Shown here: positions 54,752 through 63,255 of the stretch, one piece after another
Position numbering within the stretch: position 1 is the stretch's first letter
Layout of the letters: each line of letters opens with the position of its first letter
Source: Sinorhizobium meliloti 4H41
GTDB taxonomy: Bacteria > Pseudomonadota > Alphaproteobacteria > Rhizobiales > Rhizobiaceae
NCBI RefSeq assembly: GCF_000375585.1
Contig: NZ_AQWP01000001.1
Span: 186,001-250,000, forward strand
DNA: 64,000 nt
Direction: 5' to 3'
Notes under the pieces: model-generated
What the model was told of the DNA's origin: nothing
What the model saw: the letters and a program-made list of their open reading frames with translations, nothing else
Databases searched by the model: none
Program-made: the position numbers and the translations under genes

Positions 54752-55552
54752 TCAGACGCCGGTGAACAGCCACTCGTGTTCCCTCGCATTGTGGAACTTC
54801 CAGATCCGCTTCGGCCCCGCCATGACGTTGAGATAATAGGAATCGTAGCCGTGGACCGCAGCCACCGGATGGTAGCCCCTCGGTACCAGCGTCACGTCCC
54901 CATCCTCCACCGCCATGGCCTCGTCCAGCGAACGGTCGTCGGTATAGACGCGTTGCATTGCAAAACCCTGCGGCGGGTTGAGGCGGTGGTAATAGGTCTC
55001 CTCGAGATAGCTTTCGGCCGGCAGGTTGTCCTGGTCGTGTTTGTGCGGCGGGTAGGAGGAGGTGTGGCCGCCCGGCGTGATCACCTCGACGACCAGCAGC
55101 GACTGCGCCGATTCGTCGTCTTCCGGCATGATATTGGTGACGTAGCGGGTATTGGTGCCCCGGCCGCGCGTCATCTGCGGGTGCGTGCCGGGGCGGATGA
55201 TTTTCGCCTCGAAGCCTTCCCCGCCCGGCGCGGAGCAGACGGCGAGGTCGAGATCCGTGGTCGCTTCGGCCTGCCAGCTGCTGCCCCTCGGCACATAGAC
55301 CGCATAGGGCTGGCCCTCGAAAGGCGTCATGCGCTCGCCGAGCTCGCCGAAGTCCTCGCCATCGACCGAAACCCTGGCTTTTCCGCTGACGAGTACCAGG
55401 CAGAGTTCCTTCTCGCCCGCTTCGCCGCCGGTCGTCTCGTTGGGCCGCAGCCGATGGAGGGCGAAACCGACATAGGTCCAGCCGGCACTTTCCGGCGTGA
55501 TCTCCTGCATCAGGCCGGATTGCGCTTTCGGTTTGATGAGCAGTTTGGACAT
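54752..55552 (-). CDS. iolB: 5-deoxy-glucuronate isomerase
   Basis: 266 residues, last gene of the iol run. Bicupin fold: GWTYVGFALHRLRPNETTGG opens the first barrel, and the second has HTSSYPPHKHDQDNLPAESYLEETYYHRLN, whose His/Glu residues bind the metal. YDSYYLNVMAGPKRIWKFHN is the conserved C-terminus. It converts 5-deoxyglucuronate to 5-dehydro-2-deoxygluconate in inositol catabolism. Separated from iolE by a palindromic repeat. Confidence 0.96.
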   Translation of the reverse strand: MSKLLIKPKAQSGLMQEITPESAGWTYVGFALHRLRPNETTGGEAGEKELCLVLVSGKARVSVDGEDFGELGERMTPFEGQPYAVYVPRGSSWQAEATTDLDLAVCSAPGGEGFEAKIIRPGTHPQMTRGRGTNTRYVTNIMPEDDESAQSLLVVEVITPGGHTSSYPPHKHDQDNLPAESYLEETYYHRLNPPQGFAMQRVYTDDRSLDEAMAVEDGDVTLVPRGYHPVAAVHGYDSYYLNVMAGPKRIWKFHNAREHEWLFTGV

Positions 55553-55672: not shown

Positions 55673-56572
55673 CTACGCGTCGAGCCCCGCTTCCTTCGCA
55701 AAGGCCTTCAGCGACTTCAGCCCGAGCGATTGGTACTCGAACGGATTGCGCACGGCCGAGTCCTGCTCGGCTTCGATGACCAGCCAGCCATCATAGCCGT
55801 GCTGGGCGGCGATCTTCAGAACCGGCAGGAAATCGACGCCCCCTTCCGCATCGCCCGGAACGGTAAAGACGCCGCGTCGCACACCCTCGAGGAAGGACAG
55901 GCCTTCGCTTTCGACCACCGCGCGGACCGCCGGGCGGACGTTCTTGCAATGAATGTGGCGGACGCGGTCCATATATCTCCGCGCCACGTCCGCCGGATCG
56001 GAACCACCGAACCAGGCATGGCCGGTGTCGAGCAGCAGTTTGGTCGCCGGGCCGGTGTTCCGCATCAGGAGGTCGATCTCCTCGCCGGTCTGGACGATTG
56101 TGCCCATGTGGTGGTGGTAGACCAGATCGATGCCCTGGCCGGCGCAATATTGGGCGATCGCCTCGAGGTCGGCGCCGAATTTCTCCCACTTGTCCGCCGG
56201 CAGAACCGGCTTGTCCTTCACGAGCGACTTGGAATCGTCGCCGTGAATGGCGTTCGAGGTTTCGCAGACGATCGCCACCCTGCAGCCATTATGCTTCAGA
56301 AGGTCGAGATGCGGCTGGATAGCCTTCTTCTCCGCTTCGACATCATGGGTGAGGAGGTTGGTCGAGTGCCAGCCCGAGACGAAGACGAGATCGTAACTTG
56401 AGAGCTTCTGCTTCAGCGCTTCGGGGTCGGACGGCATCTTGTGGCCCTTCTCGATGCCGTCGAAGCCGATCTTCTTGCAATCGGAGAGGCAGTCCTCGAG
56501 CGTCAGATGCGCGCCGATCGAATGGTCGTCGTCATTGCTCCAGGCGATCGGGTTGGTTCCGTAACGGATCAT
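55673..56572 (-). CDS. iolE: myo-Inosose-2 dehydratase
   Basis: 299 residues, TIM-barrel xylose-isomerase-like fold. [20 protein letters not shown] is the family start. Metal-ligand motifs include [28 protein letters not shown] (Asp, His) and [15 protein letters not shown] (Glu). It dehydrates 2-keto-myo-inositol to 3D-trihydroxycyclohexane-1,2-dione, the substrate of IolD encoded upstream in the same run. Confidence 0.96.
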
Positions 56573-56766: not shown

Positions 56767-58620
56767 TCAACCAAACCGCTGGGCCTGGAGGGCCTTCTCG
56801 TAGCCTTCGCGGGCGGCCTTCACCTGGTCTCGGTCCGAAACCTCCGGTACCGCGACGTCCCACCAGTGCCCGCCGGCCTCCGTTGTGATCAGCGGATCGG
56901 TATCGATGACGATGACGGTCGTGCGCGCCTCGTCGGCGGTCTCCGCGAGCGCAGTTTCGAGCTCGGGGATCGAGCCGACCTTGCGGGTCACGGCGCCCAT
57001 GGCGGCGGCGTGCGCGGCGAAGTCGATCCGAGGCAGCTCCACATGATGGGTGTCCTTCAACAGATTGTTGAAGTTGGCACCGCCCGTTCCCATCTGCAGC
57101 CGGTTGATGCAACCATAGCCGGCATTGTCGAGCAGCACGACGGTGAATTTGGCGCCGAGCATGACGGAGGAGGCGATCTCCGAGTTCAGCATCATGTAGC
57201 TGCCGTCGCCCACCATGACGATCACGTCGCTATCGGGCTTGGCAAGCTTTACGCCCAGACCGCCGGCGACTTCGTAGCCCATGGTCGAAAAGCCGTATTC
57301 CATGTGATAGCCGCCCGGCTCCTCCGCCTGCCACAGCTTGTGCAGCTCGCCCGGAAGCCCCCCGGCGGCGCAGACGAGCGTCGTTTGCCTGCCGCCGCGG
57401 GCGCGCTGGACGGCGCCGATGACCTGAGCGTCGGAGGGAAGCGCGGCATTGGTGGTGGCGGTCGCTCTCTCGGCTTCAGCAAGCCACTCGGCCTTGCCCG
57501 CTTTTGCCCTCTCGGTCCAGGCTGTATCGGCCTTGTGGCTGCCGAGACCGCCGGAAATGCGGTTGAGGCCGGCCCGCGCGTCGGCAATCAGCGGCTGTCC
57601 CTGGTGCTTGCCGGCGTCGAACGCCTGGACGTTGAGGCCGATGATCTTCAGCGCCTCGTTTTTGAAGAGCGCCCAGGAACCGGTGGTGAAATCCTGCAGC
57701 CGTGAGCCGACGGCGAGCACGACATCGGCCTCTTCCGCCAATGCGTTGGAGGCGGACGTGCCGGTGACGCCGATGGAACCCATGTTCAGCGGATGCGAAT
57801 GCGGCAGAGCGGACTTGCCGGCCTGGGTCTCCATGACCGGAATGCCGTGTTTCTCGGCGAACGCAGCGAGTTCGGCGCTCGCTTCCGAGTAGAGCACGCC
57901 GCCACCGGCGATGATGATCGGCTTCTTCGCGGATCTGAGCGCCTCGATTGCCGATGCCAGCTCGTCGAGATCAGGCTCGATGCGGCGCGGAACCCAGACC
58001 TTCTCGTCGAAGAAGGATTCCGGATAGTCGTAGGCTTCCGCCTGCACGTCCTGGCAGAGCGATAGCGTCACCGGCCCGCATTCGGCAGGATCGGTCAGGA
58101 CCTGCATGGCGCGGCGGAGCGCCGGGATGATCTGCTCGGGCCGGGTGATGCGATCGAAATACCGCGAGACGGGCTTGAAGCAGTCATTCGCCGAGATCGT
58201 GCCGTCCCCGAAACTCTCCACCTGCTGCAGCACCGGATCGGGCCTGCGGTTGGCGAAGACGTCGCCGGGAAGGAGGAGAACCGGCAGTCGATTGACATGC
58301 GCCAGCGCGGCCGAGGTCACCATGTTGAGCGCGCCCGGGCCGATCGAGGTGGTGCAGGCCATGAAGCGGCGGCGGAAGCTCGCCTTGGCGAAGGCGATCG
58401 CCGCATTCGCCATGCCCTGTTCGTTCTGGGCGCGGTAGGTCGGGAGCGTTTCGCGAACGCCGTAAAGCGCTTCGCCGACGCCGGCGACATTGCCATGGCC
58501 GAAGATGGCGAAGACGCCGCCGAAGATCGGCACCCGCTCGCCGTCGATGATCGTCATCTGCCGGGTCAGGAACCGCGCCACGGCCTGTGCCATGGTCAGA
58601 CGCACGGTTTTCTGGCTCAT
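56767..58620 (-). CDS. iolD: 3D-(3,5/4)-trihydroxycyclohexane-1,2-dione acylhydrolase
   Basis: 617 residues of a thiamine-diphosphate enzyme. The Pyr domain opens with [20 protein letters not shown] and holds the [15 protein letters not shown] catalytic Glu region; the central domain has [16 protein letters not shown]; the PP domain has the ThDP motif [12 protein letters not shown] through [12 protein letters not shown]. It opens the trione ring to 5-deoxyglucuronate. ATG 58620 begins the homologous stretch [12 protein letters not shown]. Confidence 0.96.
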
Positions 58621-58669: not shown

Positions 58670-60622
58670 CTACGCCGCCTTGGTCTCACCCAATTGCAGC
58701 CAGAGATCGACGAGCGCCTTGAACTTCGCCGCCATGTCGGAGACTGCCTGCTCGTCGGTCATCCTGCCGGAGAGCCAGGCCTTGGCGGCGTCGGCGAAGA
58801 TCGTCCGGCCGACGGCAAATCCCTTGACCGTCTTCGACATTCTGGCGGCGGCGAAACCGCCTTTCAACACCTCATAGGGTGCTTCCAGGCCGAGGAGCAC
58901 CACGCCCCGGCAAAGCGGATCGCGCGCCTCGATCACGGCGTCGATCGCAGCCCAGGCGGCGCGGCTCGCTTGCGGCTCGAGCTTCCACCAGTCCGGCTTC
59001 AAGCCGGCATCATAGAGCTCCTCCAGCGCCCGCGGAATGGTCCGGTCGTCGAGTGTCCCGTGCTTGCCGGCGATGATCTCGATCAGGATCTCGCGCCCGA
59101 CCTTGCGCGCCGCCTCGAAGGCCGAACGCAACTTTGCGACCTGAGCGGCCTTGAGTTCGGCCGGATCGTCGGGATGGTAGAAGGAAAGCACCTTGATGCA
59201 GTGGTCGACCGGCCAGTCGACGAGGCGGCTGCCGAGGTCCTGGCTGAATTCGAAGGTAAGCGGCCGTGATCCTGGAAGCTCGATCGGCTTGCCGATCCAG
59301 AAGTCGCGATGGGCGCCGGCGGCATAGAGCGCATCGCGGCCGTATTTGTCGTCGATCAGCATGCCGAAGCCGGAGCGGCCTTGAGCCACCTCTGCCGCAG
59401 CCCTGACGGCAAGCACCTTGAAGGCCGGGATGCGCGAGAGCAGTTCCGGATTTCCCTCGGCAATGTCCTCGAGCTGACTGCGATGGTCGACGGCGAGCGC
59501 CATCAGGAGCGGGATGTCGCGCCGGCGCGTCGTCGCCCAGTGCACGTGGTTGATCGCCTCGTCCTTGCGCAGCGCCTTCTCCTTGCTGCCGTGCTCGAGG
59601 AAATATCGCAGTTCGGTCCAGGTCGGGATTTCCGGCGCGCAGAGCAGGCGCGAGACCGCGAAGGCGCCGCAGGCATTGGCCCAGGTAGCGGACGTCGCGT
59701 GCGGCTCGCCGGTGAGCCAGCCGCGCAGAAAGCCTGACATGAAAGCGTCGCCGGCGCCGAGAACGTTATAGACTTCGATTGGAAAACCCTTGCCGACGAT
59801 ACCGTCTTCGAGATCGTCCGAGATCGGTCCATCATAGACGATGCAGCCCATCGGTCCACGTTTGAGCACGATCGTGGCTTCGGAGAGGGAGCGGATGGTC
59901 TTGAGTGCCGCGAGGAGGTCGCTTTCGCCCGATGCGATCAGCACCTCTTCCTCGGTGCCGACAATCAGGTCGCAATCGCCGAGCACGGTCTTCAGATGCG
60001 CCGAAACGCGGTCCGAGGCGATGTAGCGGCTCTCGCCCGCATCGTGACCCGCAAGACCCCATAGATTAGGGCGGTAATCGATGTCGAAGACGATCCTGGC
60101 GCCGCTTTCCTTGGCGATCCTCATCGCCTTGCGCTGGGCGGCGTCCGCATTCGGTTTGGCAAAATGCGTGCCGGTGACGAGGACCGCGCGCGCGGAACCG
60201 ATGAAATCTTCCGAAATATCGTCCTCGCAAAGCGCGTTGTCGGCGCAATTGTCGCGATAGAAAAGGAGCGGGAAGGATTTGTCGTTCTCGACGGAGAGGA
60301 TCGCAAGTGCGGTCAGCCGCTCCGGGTCGGTGACGATGCCGCGCGTCTCCACGCCTTCGCGCTGAAGCTGCTCACGGATGAAGCGGCCCATCTGTTCGTC
60401 GCCGACGCGCGTCAGGAGCGCCGATTTCAGGCCGAGGCGCGCTGTGCCCACGGAAATGTTGCAGGGGCAGCCGCCGACGGATTTGGCGAAGCTCGCCACG
60501 TCTTCGAGCCGCGTGCCGATCTGCTGTCCGTAGAGGTCGACCGAAGCTCTGCCGATCGTGATGAGGTCGAGGGGCTTGGCACCCGCACCTGATGGAACTT
60601 GGGCCGACGAAATCTGGCTCAC
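58670..60622 (-). CDS. iolC: IolC: 5-dehydro-2-deoxygluconokinase fused to DUF2090 aldolase-like domain
   Basis: 650 residues. The N-terminal PfkB kinase (about 15-330) starts PLDLITIGRASVDLYGQQIG and has the anion hole/catalytic Asp in NVLGAGDAFMSGFLRGW. The C-terminal half (about 345-640) is the DUF2090 domain of Rhizobium-type IolC (LMALAVDHRSQLEDI, FGMLIDDKYGRDAL, ILIEIIAGKHGT), an aldolase-like TIM barrel that may do the IolJ step. The fusion is normal for this order and not a local rearrangement. First gene of iolC-D-E-B, with a putative IolR box upstream. Confidence 0.96.
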   Translation of the reverse strand: MSQISSAQVPSGAGAKPLDLITIGRASVDLYGQQIGTRLEDVASFAKSVGGCPCNISVGTARLGLKSALLTRVGDEQMGRFIREQLQREGVETRGIVTDPERLTALAILSVENDKSFPLLFYRDNCADNALCEDDISEDFIGSARAVLVTGTHFAKPNADAAQRKAMRIAKESGARIVFDIDYRPNLWGLAGHDAGESRYIASDRVSAHLKTVLGDCDLIVGTEEEVLIASGESDLLAALKTIRSLSEATIVLKRGPMGCIVYDGPISDDLEDGIVGKGFPIEVYNVLGAGDAFMSGFLRGWLTGEPHATSATWANACGAFAVSRLLCAPEIPTWTELRYFLEHGSKEKALRKDEAINHVHWATTRRRDIPLLMALAVDHRSQLEDIAEGNPELLSRIPAFKVLAVRAAAEVAQGRSGFGMLIDDKYGRDALYAAGAHRDFWIGKPIELPGSRPLTFEFSQDLGSRLVDWPVDHCIKVLSFYHPDDPAELKAAQVAKLRSAFEAARKVGREILIEIIAGKHGTLDDRTIPRALEELYDAGLKPDWWKLEPQASRAAWAAIDAVIEARDPLCRGVVLLGLEAPYEVLKGGFAAARMSKTVKGFAVGRTIFADAAKAWLSGRMTDEQAVSDMAAKFKALVDLWLQLGETKAA

Positions 60623-60719
60623 TGCTTCCTCCCTGCGGACGCCGGACCGGCGCCGACAACTATGTCTATGCCATGGGTGACGAGCATATGAAACATAAAT
60701 TCCGTTGTTTCGTCAATAT

Positions 60720-60733
60720 GGAATTTCCGTTCT
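60720..60733 (-). promoter_or_regulatory. Putative IolR box upstream of iolC
   Basis: GGAA (60720-60723), six bases, TTCT (60730-60733): one mismatch to GGAA-N6-TTCC. It lies about 100 bases before the iolC start. The preceding GTCAATATGGAAT also occurs before the oxidoreductase gene at 63068. Confidence 0.6.
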
Positions 60734-60741
60734 ATATTGCC

Positions 60742-61596
60742 TCACTCGCCCTCGGCGAGGCGGCGCCGTTTCTCGGCGATTGCGACGGTCAGCGCCATGG
60801 CGAAGGCCATGCTGGCGGAGAGCGAACGGAAGCCGGCATGATCGGCCTCGACCAGTTCGAACCAGACCCTGGAGGATTCGGCGAGCGGCGAGAAGGCGGA
60901 GTCGGTCAGCGAGACAACGGGTACCTTGCGGTTGGCGAGCAAGCGCGCCTGGCTGGCGCTTTCCGACGCGTAGGGCGAGAAGCTGACGGCAAAGGCGGCA
61001 TCCTCCTTCGTCGCCATGGCCAACATGTCCTCGTCGATCCCGGCGGCCGTTCCGACATGCTGATATTTCACCTTCAGCTTGCCGAACGCATAGGCCATGT
61101 AGCTGGAGATCGGATAGGAGCGCCGCTTGGCGATGAGATAGATCGTGTTCGCCTTGGCGAGAATGCCGACGGCGCGCTCGAATGCCTCGGGATCGACCGA
61201 GGTGGCGATGTTGTCGAGCGAGCGATGGGCGGCCGCAACGAAGCCGTTGAAGATCGATCCGCTTTCGAGCTTGCTGTGATCGTTCTGGCGCAGCGCCTTC
61301 AGTCGTTCCTCGTAGCCGGGCGTGCGCTCCCGCAGGCGTGCGCGAAAAATCTGCTGCAGGCTCGAAAAGCCTTCGAAGCCGAAGTGCTGGGCGAAGCGCA
61401 CGAGAGTCGAGGGCTGGACGTCGGCCGAAGTCGCAATACTCGCCGCCGTCCCGAAGGCGATCTCGTCCGGATTGTCGAGCGAGTAGGCCGCCACCTGTTT
61501 CAGCCGTTTCGGCAGCTGCGCCTTGCGCTCGAGGATAACCGCCTTCAGCGTTTCGAAATCCTGCGGGACATCGGCAATCGTTTCAGGCGTGGGCAT
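60742..61596 (-). CDS. iolR: RpiR/MurR family regulator of inositol catabolism
   Basis: 284 residues. The N-terminal RpiR HTH (IAFGTAASIATSADVQPSTLVRFAQHFGFEGFS spans recognition helix residues) is followed by a SIS sugar-phosphate isomerase domain (TIYLIAKRRSYPISSYMAYA, FAVSFSPYASESASQARLLANRKVPVVSLTDSAFSPLA holds the ligand loop). In S. meliloti an RpiR-type IolR represses inositol genes. Its gene is next to iolC in the same orientation and has a box-like site upstream. Confidence 0.94.
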   Translation of the reverse strand: MPTPETIADVPQDFETLKAVILERKAQLPKRLKQVAAYSLDNPDEIAFGTAASIATSADVQPSTLVRFAQHFGFEGFSSLQQIFRARLRERTPGYEERLKALRQNDHSKLESGSIFNGFVAAAHRSLDNIATSVDPEAFERAVGILAKANTIYLIAKRRSYPISSYMAYAFGKLKVKYQHVGTAAGIDEDMLAMATKEDAAFAVSFSPYASESASQARLLANRKVPVVSLTDSAFSPLAESSRVWFELVEADHAGFRSLSASMAFAMALTVAIAEKRRRLAEGE

Positions 61597-61660
61597 CGTT
61601 CGGGCCTCCGGCTCGCTCTCGTCGTTTGCCTCAGTTTAATCGACTATCCATTGCAGCGAT

Positions 61661-61674
61661 AGAATGGACGTTCC
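61661..61674 (-). promoter_or_regulatory. Putative IolR box upstream of iolR
   Basis: AGAA (61661-61664), six bases, TTCC (61671-61674): one mismatch to GGAA-N6-TTCC, 65 bases upstream of the iolR start. The overlapping AATGGA-CGT-TCCATT (61663-61677) is a perfect inverted repeat. Suggests autoregulation. Confidence 0.55.
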
Positions 61675-61730
61675 ATTTTGGTTCCTTATCCAGCGGGAAG
61701 TATGCATGCCCGCATCGCCTCAGGCTTGCC

Positions 61731-61845
61731 TCCCACAGGCGGGGCGAAGGAAACTCGCGGCGCTACCTTCGCCGACATGACCGCCGGCCAACCATCGGGC
61801 ACGTCCCCTCTCTCCGCGCGCGGGGAGAGGGTTAGGGTGAGGGGC
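61731..61845. repeat. Palindromic intergenic repeat, copy E
   Basis: Core CCCTCTCTCCGCGCGCGGGG-AGAGGG (61805-61830), with GTTAGGGTGAGGGGC after it and CCCACAGGCGGGGCGAAGG near the left edge. It lies between the iolR promoter and the end of the oxidoreductase gene. Confidence 0.55.
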
Positions 61846-61873
61846 AAGGACAACGGCGAGTCGGACGCCGAGA

Positions 61874-63004
61874 TCAGCCAATCTCCACCCAATCGTTCGT
61901 CCTTGCGGAGTGATAGGTTGCGGAAAGGACCTTCTGGACTTCGTAGCCCTCGCGGAAATCGGTCGAGGTCTTACCGCCCTTGGCGATCGCTTCCAGGAAC
62001 TCGTTGGCCTCGATCGCCTTCAGCTCGTTGAAGCCGATCTGGTGGCCCGGTGCCACGCAGAAGGCTCCGTAGGGCGGATGCTCCGGTCCCGCCCAGATCG
62101 TCCGGAAGCCGCGGCTCCTGATGTCGCCGCCGGCGGAGTAGACCCTGATCTCGTTCAGCCGCTCCTGGGTGAAGACGATGCTTCCCTTGGAGCCGTAAAT
62201 CTCGAAATCGTGCTGCATCTTGCGGCCGGTCGCGATCCAGCTCGCTTCGAAGCTTCCGCTCGCGCCGCTCTCGAAACGGACGAAGGCCCTCGTGACGTCG
62301 TCGACCTCGACCGTCCGGGTCTCTGTGGCGCCGCGCGTGACAGGGCGCTGCGGAACGTGGATGACGGTCTCTGCCAGTACGGACCGGATCGGCCCGACGA
62401 GATGGCGCATGCAGGCGATCATGTGGCTGCCGATGTCGGCGAGCGCACCGCCGCCGCTGCGCGGGTCCAGCCGCCAACCCCACGGAACGCTCTCATCAGC
62501 CATGAAATCTTCTGCATGAATGCCGCGAAACGACCGTATTTCGCCGATCTCGCCGCTTTCGATGATGTCCCTGGCGAGAAAAATGAGCGGGTTCTTGAGA
62601 TAGTTGAAGCCGACCTGAGTGACGACGCCGGCCTTTTGCGCGGCGGCGACCATTTCGGCGCAGTCGGCGACCGTCGGCGCCAGCGGCTTTTCGCAATAGA
62701 CGTGCTTGCCGTGGGCAATCGCAGCGAGCGCCATTTCCTTGTGCAGGAGGTTCGGCGTGGTGATGTCGATGATGTCGATCTCGGGATCGGTCAGAAGTTC
62801 GCGCCAGTCGGCCGTCGCCTTGCGGAAGCCGAGTTGCCCGCGGGCCGCCTCCGCTCCCTCCTGCGTCACGTCCGCGACGGATACGAGATCGAGCTCGAAG
62901 GGCAGGCCGAAGACTCGTGCCGCAATCGTGAACCCAAGGGCATGCGCCTTGCCCATGAAGCCCGTCCCGATCAGGCCAATGCCCAGCCTGCGCTTGCCGC
63001 TCAT
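61874..63004 (-). CDS. Gfo/Idh/MocA oxidoreductase, inositol-dehydrogenase-like
   Basis: 376 residues. Rossmann start LGIGLIGTGFMGKAHALGF, catalytic CEKPLAPTVADC, substrate-binding GGGALADIGSHMIACMRHL with Asp and His retained. An IolR-like box 72 bases upstream and the position next to iolR and iolC place it in the inositol regulon, so it probably oxidises an inositol isomer such as scyllo-inositol. A comparable S. meliloti gene has been called iolY1; I leave the symbol empty because I cannot confirm the orthologue. Confidence 0.92.
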   Translation of the reverse strand: MSGKRRLGIGLIGTGFMGKAHALGFTIAARVFGLPFELDLVSVADVTQEGAEAARGQLGFRKATADWRELLTDPEIDIIDITTPNLLHKEMALAAIAHGKHVYCEKPLAPTVADCAEMVAAAQKAGVVTQVGFNYLKNPLIFLARDIIESGEIGEIRSFRGIHAEDFMADESVPWGWRLDPRSGGGALADIGSHMIACMRHLVGPIRSVLAETVIHVPQRPVTRGATETRTVEVDDVTRAFVRFESGASGSFEASWIATGRKMQHDFEIYGSKGSIVFTQERLNEIRVYSAGGDIRSRGFRTIWAGPEHPPYGAFCVAPGHQIGFNELKAIEANEFLEAIAKGGKTSTDFREGYEVQKVLSATYHSARTNDWVEIG

Positions 63005-63075
63005 CTCGTTTCTCCCGGGCCAAGCCCTGTCTGTGCTCGGCGAAATGAAATGAAATGCGCGCGAATTGTCAATAT

Positions 63076-63089
63076 GGAATATTTGTTCG
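63076..63089 (-). promoter_or_regulatory. Putative IolR box upstream of the oxidoreductase gene
   Basis: GGAA (63076-63079), six bases, TTCG (63086-63089): one mismatch to GGAA-N6-TTCC, about 72 bases before the start at 63004. Shares GTCAATATGGAAT with the iolC upstream region. Confidence 0.6.
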
Positions 63090-63255
63090 AAAATCCGGTC
63101 CCGCGTGCCTGATGGAACAGGGCGTGTCCGCCCGGTCCGCTATGCTTGGGGCAGAATGTGTTAACGCATTTTTACCATGTTGCGTTGAAACATCACTGGT
63201 GACGGTGGTGGACGAATCGCTTTCATATGGCGGGGCGAAATCGGAGTGATCGAGC

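Follow-up and report, generated by a model that had tools for sequence, protein, structure and literature searches.

Putative IolR operators before iolC, iolR and iolY in Sinorhizobium meliloti 4H41, with a possible weaker second site 29-30 bp downstream

We analyzed a 64,000-nucleotide window of Sinorhizobium meliloti 4H41 (contig NZ_AQWP01000001.1, positions 186,001 to 250,000) that contains a cluster of inositol genes and sequences resembling binding sites for the regulator IolR. The genes lie in the order iolY-R-C-D-E-B, all on the minus strand, which is the iolYRCDEB arrangement. They are iolY (61874..63004), encoding a Gfo/Idh/MocA-type oxidoreductase; iolR (60742..61596), encoding an RpiR-family regulator; iolC (58670..60622), encoding a 5-dehydro-2-deoxygluconokinase with a fused aldolase part; iolD (56767..58620); iolE (55673..56572); and iolB (54752..55552). 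The products of iolC, iolD, iolE and iolB passed the NCBIfam cut-offs, and neither IolR nor the oxidoreductase did. IolR, encoded between iolY and iolC, contains the RpiR helix-turn-helix (HTH_6) and a SIS domain and matches the IolR of Ensifer sp. USDA 6670 at 100% identity. Compared with megaplasmids, two segments of this assembly were ~98% identical to Sinorhizobium sp. C101, K101 and M103 and to one S. meliloti, and 92-94% identical to the other S. meliloti listed.

The gaps upstream of iolC, iolR and iolY (119, 277 and 251 bp, respectively) each contain a box resembling GGAA-N6-TTCC, a motif defined in Caulobacter and found in other alpha-proteobacteria (PMC2597717). The boxes are GGAATTTCCGTTCT (60720-60733), AGAATGGACGTTCC (61661-61674) and GGAATATTTGTTCG (63076-63089). 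Read on the coding (minus) strand, they are the putative iolC operator O1 (AGAACGGAAATTCC, with arms CAATAT/ATATTG), the iolR operator (GGAACGTCCATTCT) and the iolY operator O1 (CGAACAAATATTCC). An original prediction made from the letters of the window had placed boxes before these three genes, each one base off the consensus, and we found the coordinates, the sequences and the single mismatches exactly as it claimed. Its description of the boxes as near-identical was too strong: each has 7 of the 8 core bases of the consensus, and the N6 interiors are unlike one another.

We estimated how often such boxes arise by chance. A single one-mismatch box is not significant, because the window contains 42 such matches and 26 +/- 5 are expected; none of 100 shuffles reached 42. 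At least one match occurred in 5.7% of dinucleotide shuffles of the 119-bp gap, 13% of those of the 277-bp gap and 15% of those of the 251-bp gap. A box in all three gaps at once occurred in 6 of 5000 shuffles.

We found that the boxes are conserved beside the same genes in relatives. We used the best 80 of 172 iolR loci found, taken from named genomes. The iolR-iolC gap contained a box in 76/76 loci, allowing up to 2 mismatches in 10 bases; these counts exclude three loci with no iolC match (L059, L069 and L073) and one with a partial match (L046). An iolY orthologue, defined as a gene with >70% identity directly upstream, was present in 34 of the 80 loci. All 34 had a box, 61-75 bp before iolY, with one mismatch to TGGAA-N6-TTCCA in 32 loci and two mismatches in 2. 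The iolY counts exclude homologues below 70% (divergently placed genes, Devosia and others) and loci without an iolY match, some of them on short contigs. Within 170 bp upstream of iolR, 72 of 80 loci had a box. A second search, of 199 genomes of the family, gave a strong IolY match in 19, the window's own included. Among the 18 others, orthologues with at least 83% identity had the box in 5 of 5 cases, four of them new (L151 is the same DNA as L037). Genes with 56-69% identity to iolY were a mixed set: a perfect box lay within 400 bp in 4 of 13 (three from one genus), and the other 9 had no box with two or fewer mismatches. The link between box and gene thus holds only for close orthologues.

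The original prediction had called the oxidoreductase gene unassigned. It is not: in position, neighbors and similarity it matches S. meliloti SMc01163, and for that reason we identify it as iolY, probably encoding a scyllo-inositol dehydrogenase. SMc01163 has been named IolY, a scyllo-inositol oxidase (PMC8343143). The best NCBIfam scores of the oxidoreductase were 341 bits for levoglucosan dehydrogenase (cut-off 650 bits) and 123.5 bits for the myo-inositol 2-dehydrogenase IolG (TIGR04380), below the curated cut-off of 355 bits. The IolG/IdhA of this genome is encoded on another contig and scored 421.8 bits, above the cut-off. Among solved structures, the top match was 4fb5 (E 9e-96), a 'probable oxidoreductase' without a named function. 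Among those with a named function, the nearest was 5ya8 (E 2e-92), a scyllo-inositol/L-glucose dehydrogenase. Its catalytic residues, an EKP lysine and a D..H pair, are aligned in the oxidoreductase.

The boxes before iolC and iolY share more than the core motif. As originally claimed, the 13-mer GTCAATATGGAAT (ATTCCATATTGAC on the coding strand) occurs at both, at 60712 and 63068 on the plus strand; it does not occur on the minus strand of the window. The 13-mer alone proves little, because 296 different 13-mers occur at least twice on the plus strand of the window; what matters is its equal position relative to both boxes. The simplest reading is that the 13-mer would be the right arm of the operator running into a -35-like TTGAC hexamer. 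TTGAC was kept at 97-99% per position in the 76 iolC loci and at 100% in the 34 iolY loci, and the mirror-image positions to the left of the box were not conserved in those loci. We considered whether the whole 13-mer might be a regulator site and rejected this, as its TTGAC part has no conserved mirror image. The probable -35 hexamers are TTGACG for iolC (60711..60716, overlapping the outer arm of O1) and TTGACA for iolY (63067..63072). A conserved TTTCAT lies 16 bp (iolY) or 17 bp (iolC) past the TTGAC hexamer. At iolC, where it is a possible -10 hexamer (60688..60693), it was kept at 87-99% per position and matches only 4 of the 6 bases of TATAAT.

We found a second conserved block downstream of the box at iolC and iolY. 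In the iolC loci, the block CGGAATTTATGTTTCAT, kept at 58-99% per position, lies 30 bp downstream of O1. In the window, this block contains GAAACATAAATTCC (60690-60703), another match in the iolC gap with a single mismatch, which the original prediction had overlooked. This candidate site, O2 (GGAATTTATGTTTC on the coding strand), has 7 of the 8 core bases and overlaps the possible -10 hexamer; it scored only 5.5 bits (E 3) with a model based on O1 sites. In the 34 iolY loci, the block TCATTTCAT was kept at 97-100% per position. The window's own iolY second site, with the half-site TTTC, is weak (63047..63060, 29 bp downstream of O1). Upstream of idhA and ibpA in members of the genus, the block at a similar distance usually reads TGGCC-N6-TTCCG or TGGTT-N6-TTCCG.

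The distance between box and block is nearly constant. We scored the eight core bases at offsets of 16-60 bp on both sides of the box (81-90 offsets per class). For idhA and ibpA, 34 and 32 places were found, with loci for 30 each; the scan used 28 and 30 loci (27 and 27 without duplicates). An offset of 30 ranked first for iolC, with a score of 6.89 of 8 in Rhizobiaceae (50 loci) and, separately, 6.04 in Devosia and others (26 loci), and for ibpA (5.96 of 8; 30 loci). An offset of 29 ranked first for iolY (4.91; 34 loci) and idhA (5.74; 28 loci). The mean over offsets was ~2. The iolR box, an internal control, gave no peak at 29 or 30: these offsets ranked 90 and 88 of 90 in the Sinorhizobium-type loci (23 loci) and 22 and 17 in the others (49 loci). 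If iolC sets the spacing, the other three promoters would by chance all peak at an offset of 29 or 30, among ~90, with a probability of ~(2/90)^3, or ~1e-5. This figure is rough: adjacent offsets are correlated, each class consists of related loci, and the pattern was noticed by eye before it was counted.

Two side observations concern this spacing. Two imperfect boxes 29 bp apart (L170:1408-1452) lie upstream of a gene (G000:C3:105453) whose product is a paralogue, 60% identical, of the inositol-binding protein. An offset of -20 ranked first for iolR loci outside the Sinorhizobium group (L032-L088) and shared second place for iolC in Devosia and others, a hint that the main box has another half-site upstream.

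In S. meliloti, the ability to use inositol is reported to be important for nodule competition (Kohler 2010). The work of Kohler and colleagues (2010 and 2011) reportedly included gel shifts on the idhA, iolY, iolR and iolC regions and reportedly found smc01163 to be required for growth on scyllo-inositol. Kohler and colleagues proposed that IolR binds DNA in S. meliloti and is released by the late inositol intermediate KDGP (PMC8877191). There, iolYRCDEB is described as one transcript, yet with IolR sites before iolY, iolR and iolC, and also before idhA (PMC8877191). In E. aridi, putative IolR sites lie before idhA, iolY, iolR, iolC and an inositol transporter gene (PMC8877191). IolR regulation has been suggested as the cause of lowered iolY, iolBCD and iatA transcripts in a mutant (PMC8343143). 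The regulon and the role of the oxidoreductase are, then, already known from S. meliloti, and the novelty of the original claim falls.

A sequence-only operator model, built from 49 operator sites of relatives, was used to score the 6.79-Mb genome (150 of 1742 first-look candidates were scored genome-wide). The three boxes ranked 1-3 (E 0.02, 0.098 and 0.105), with the iolC O1 first, and stood well above the remaining matches in the window; the fourth match had an E of 0.42. A long-arm pattern search also gave the iolC site as best, with 40-odd other places matched. We consider it very likely that the three boxes are IolR operators of the known S. meliloti-type inositol regulon, and IolR is predicted to bind them and repress the genes as described for S. 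meliloti. The proposal that the oxidoreductase is tied to inositol use through IolR-type operators is likewise well supported, by conservation, genome rank, likeness to scyllo-inositol dehydrogenase and the published sites. The claim that the three boxes define the regulon did not hold up: further boxes lie elsewhere in the genome, at idhA and at the ibpA transporter operon, and a second site is present at iolC. We give almost no credence to the notion that the three boxes match a short motif by chance. One-mismatch matches are indeed common, 42 in the window alone, and a ten-base version of the consensus with up to 2 mismatches matched the genome 2708 times, compared with 1954 in a reversed control, a search that we dropped as evidence because it was too loose. 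However, the boxes are kept beside the same genes while their flanks decay, and chance would also have to account for the top genome rank, the 6 in 5000 joint shuffles and the published equivalents of the sites.

Several points weigh against our interpretation of the boxes and of the second site. The training set includes two rows, one from iolC and one from iolY, that are identical to the window's own sites, so the model rank indicates uniqueness rather than independent prediction. The genome-wide model did not recover, at E<=10, the idhA and ibpA boxes or a box before a neighboring gene for a TIM-barrel protein; scored locally, these gave 10.6, 8.6 and 11.0 bits, respectively, and the idhA box has no mismatch in the GGAA-N6-TTCC core. 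In 8 of the 80 loci there was no qualifying box before iolR, and in the other 72 its distance from the start of iolR varies from 2 to 127 bp. A promoter scan by consensus, which requires an A at the second -10 position, reported none of the proposed minus-strand promoters, making the -10 assignment tentative, and it gave plus-strand matches over both boxes (60710-60738 and 63066-63094). O2 is degenerate, the window's iolY second site having 4 of 8 core bases, and the conservation of O2 at iolC could be that of a -10 element. Finally, iolC was not induced in an E. aridi iolR mutant (PMC8877191), so a model of repression alone may be too simple for iolC.

We are evenly divided on the broader proposal that repression by IolR in Rhizobiales involves a conserved double operator. 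In this proposal, a single tetramer would bridge a strong palindrome and, 29-30 bp downstream, a weaker site, across the promoter at iolC, iolY, idhA and ibpA, and iolR would keep one site only. We found no description of a double IolR site in rhizobia in the literature searched, which did not extend to Kohler 2010 and 2011. Our results might also indicate that O2 is simply the -10 region of the promoter, that IolR makes no contact there and that each promoter has one operator, a serious possibility that we nevertheless rate below even. The iolC and iolY blocks contain TTTCAT 16-17 bp from the TTGAC hexamer, and O2 departs from the operator consensus. However, the idhA and ibpA blocks (usually TGGCC- or TGGTT-N6-TTCCG) are unlike a -10 element and lie at the same 29-30 bp offset, and O2 of iolC in the window has 7 of 8 operator core bases. 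A further alternative, which seems unlikely to us, concerns iolR: its box might work chiefly with other regulators, either a LacI-type protein at an adjoining CTAATCGATTAG palindrome or RpoE2. An CTAATCGATTAG-like block near the iolR box is kept in the 23 Sinorhizobium-type loci, and ThuR and RpoE2 sites at iolR were proposed by the authors of the E. aridi study (PMC8877191). In the window, however, the palindrome is degraded (TAGTCGATTA), and the -10 positions expected for RpoE2 are not conserved at iolR. RpoE2 promoters have the motif GGAAC-N16-17-CGTT. An RpoE2 -35 element at the iolR box was rejected, as the bases that should accompany it are not conserved.

Counted from where the iolR box starts, the CTAATCGATTAG-like palindrome lies ~28-40 bases further on (L009-L031 except L012, and L055); it fits the LacI-type pattern AANCGNTT quoted for PckR (PMC8877191). 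The iolY-iolR gap ranges from 72 to 324 bp in 34 loci (among L009-L074) and is 277 bp in the window (61597-61873) and 132 bp in a near relative (L009). This wide variation suggests that intergenic elements have been inserted inside the operon. A GC-rich stretch at ~61800-61850 may resemble a Rhizobium intergenic mosaic element; a repeat search near this stretch found no repeat at the settings used.

Two more boxes were seen elsewhere in the genome. The fourth match of the operator model is a mismatch-free box (G000:C3:16814-16829; L168:1502-1517) between genes for an ABC permease and a LacI-family regulator; an IolR site before a LacI gene is mentioned by the E. aridi authors (PMC8877191). The box of the TIM-barrel gene has a perfect eight-base core (L144:4197-4212; G000:C3:384196) and lies just before the likely start of that gene, upstream of ibpA-like transporter genes. 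The gene probably encodes the putative inosose isomerase SMb20711 (PMC3454389).

In the double-operator model, IolR would cover the strong palindrome O1 in the absence of inositol, its downstream arm reaching the -35 region. At iolC, iolY, idhA and ibpA, IolR would probably also contact the weaker O2, 29-30 bp downstream, and a tetramer bridging ~45-46 bp would block binding of RNA polymerase, a steric form of repression. The single site at iolR would give autorepression, and KDGP would release IolR. We infer the -35 and -10 assignments, the bridging and the steric repression from spacing and family. Bridging is favored because the pair spans 45-46 bp, O1 reaches the -35 hexamer, O2 of iolC lies on the possible -10 hexamer, and the RpiR-family proteins MurR and NanR offer a parallel. 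If the model is correct, fixed-distance bridging would, with MurR and NanR, be a general mode of the RpiR family. The useful addition would be an operator grammar of strong site, fixed 29-30 bp step and weak site, which would account both for the extra box at iolC and for the 13-mer common to iolC and iolY, as an operator arm joined to a -35. It would also provide comparative evidence on two-site bridging by RpiR-family tetramers, a hypothesis raised for NanR in a 2025 preprint.

The system resembles several that are known. The genes, their order, the motif and the box positions (idhA, iolY, iolR and iolC) are the same as in the S. meliloti IolR regulon as described in PMC8877191 and PMC8343143; to these, the present analysis adds the overlap with the probable -35 hexamer and a candidate second site 29-30 bp downstream. 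In Caulobacter crescentus, a GGAA-N6-TTCC-type palindrome likewise precedes idhA, iolC and ibpA, with two copies at iolC (PMC2597717). Those copies, 104 and 45 bp upstream, are 59 bp apart, unlike the 29-30 bp found here, and a mutated second copy made no difference in complex medium (PMC2597717). A tetramer of Escherichia coli MurR has been proposed to bridge two adjacent sites over the -35 and -10 elements, spanning 47 bp (PMC12713135), close to the 45-46 bp here. MurR is a different RpiR-family regulator with another motif, and its sites are separated by 17 bp rather than 13-14 bp. The double operator suggested here has a fixed 29-30 bp offset in four promoter classes and a weak -10. Streptococcus pneumoniae NanR, also an RpiR-family tetramer, may use a degenerate half palindrome ~23 bp downstream of its main site (PMC12713135); here, the right half-site, TTCC, starts 24-25 bp past the 16-bp O1. 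NanR is an activator (PMC12713135), whereas IolR is described as a repressor.

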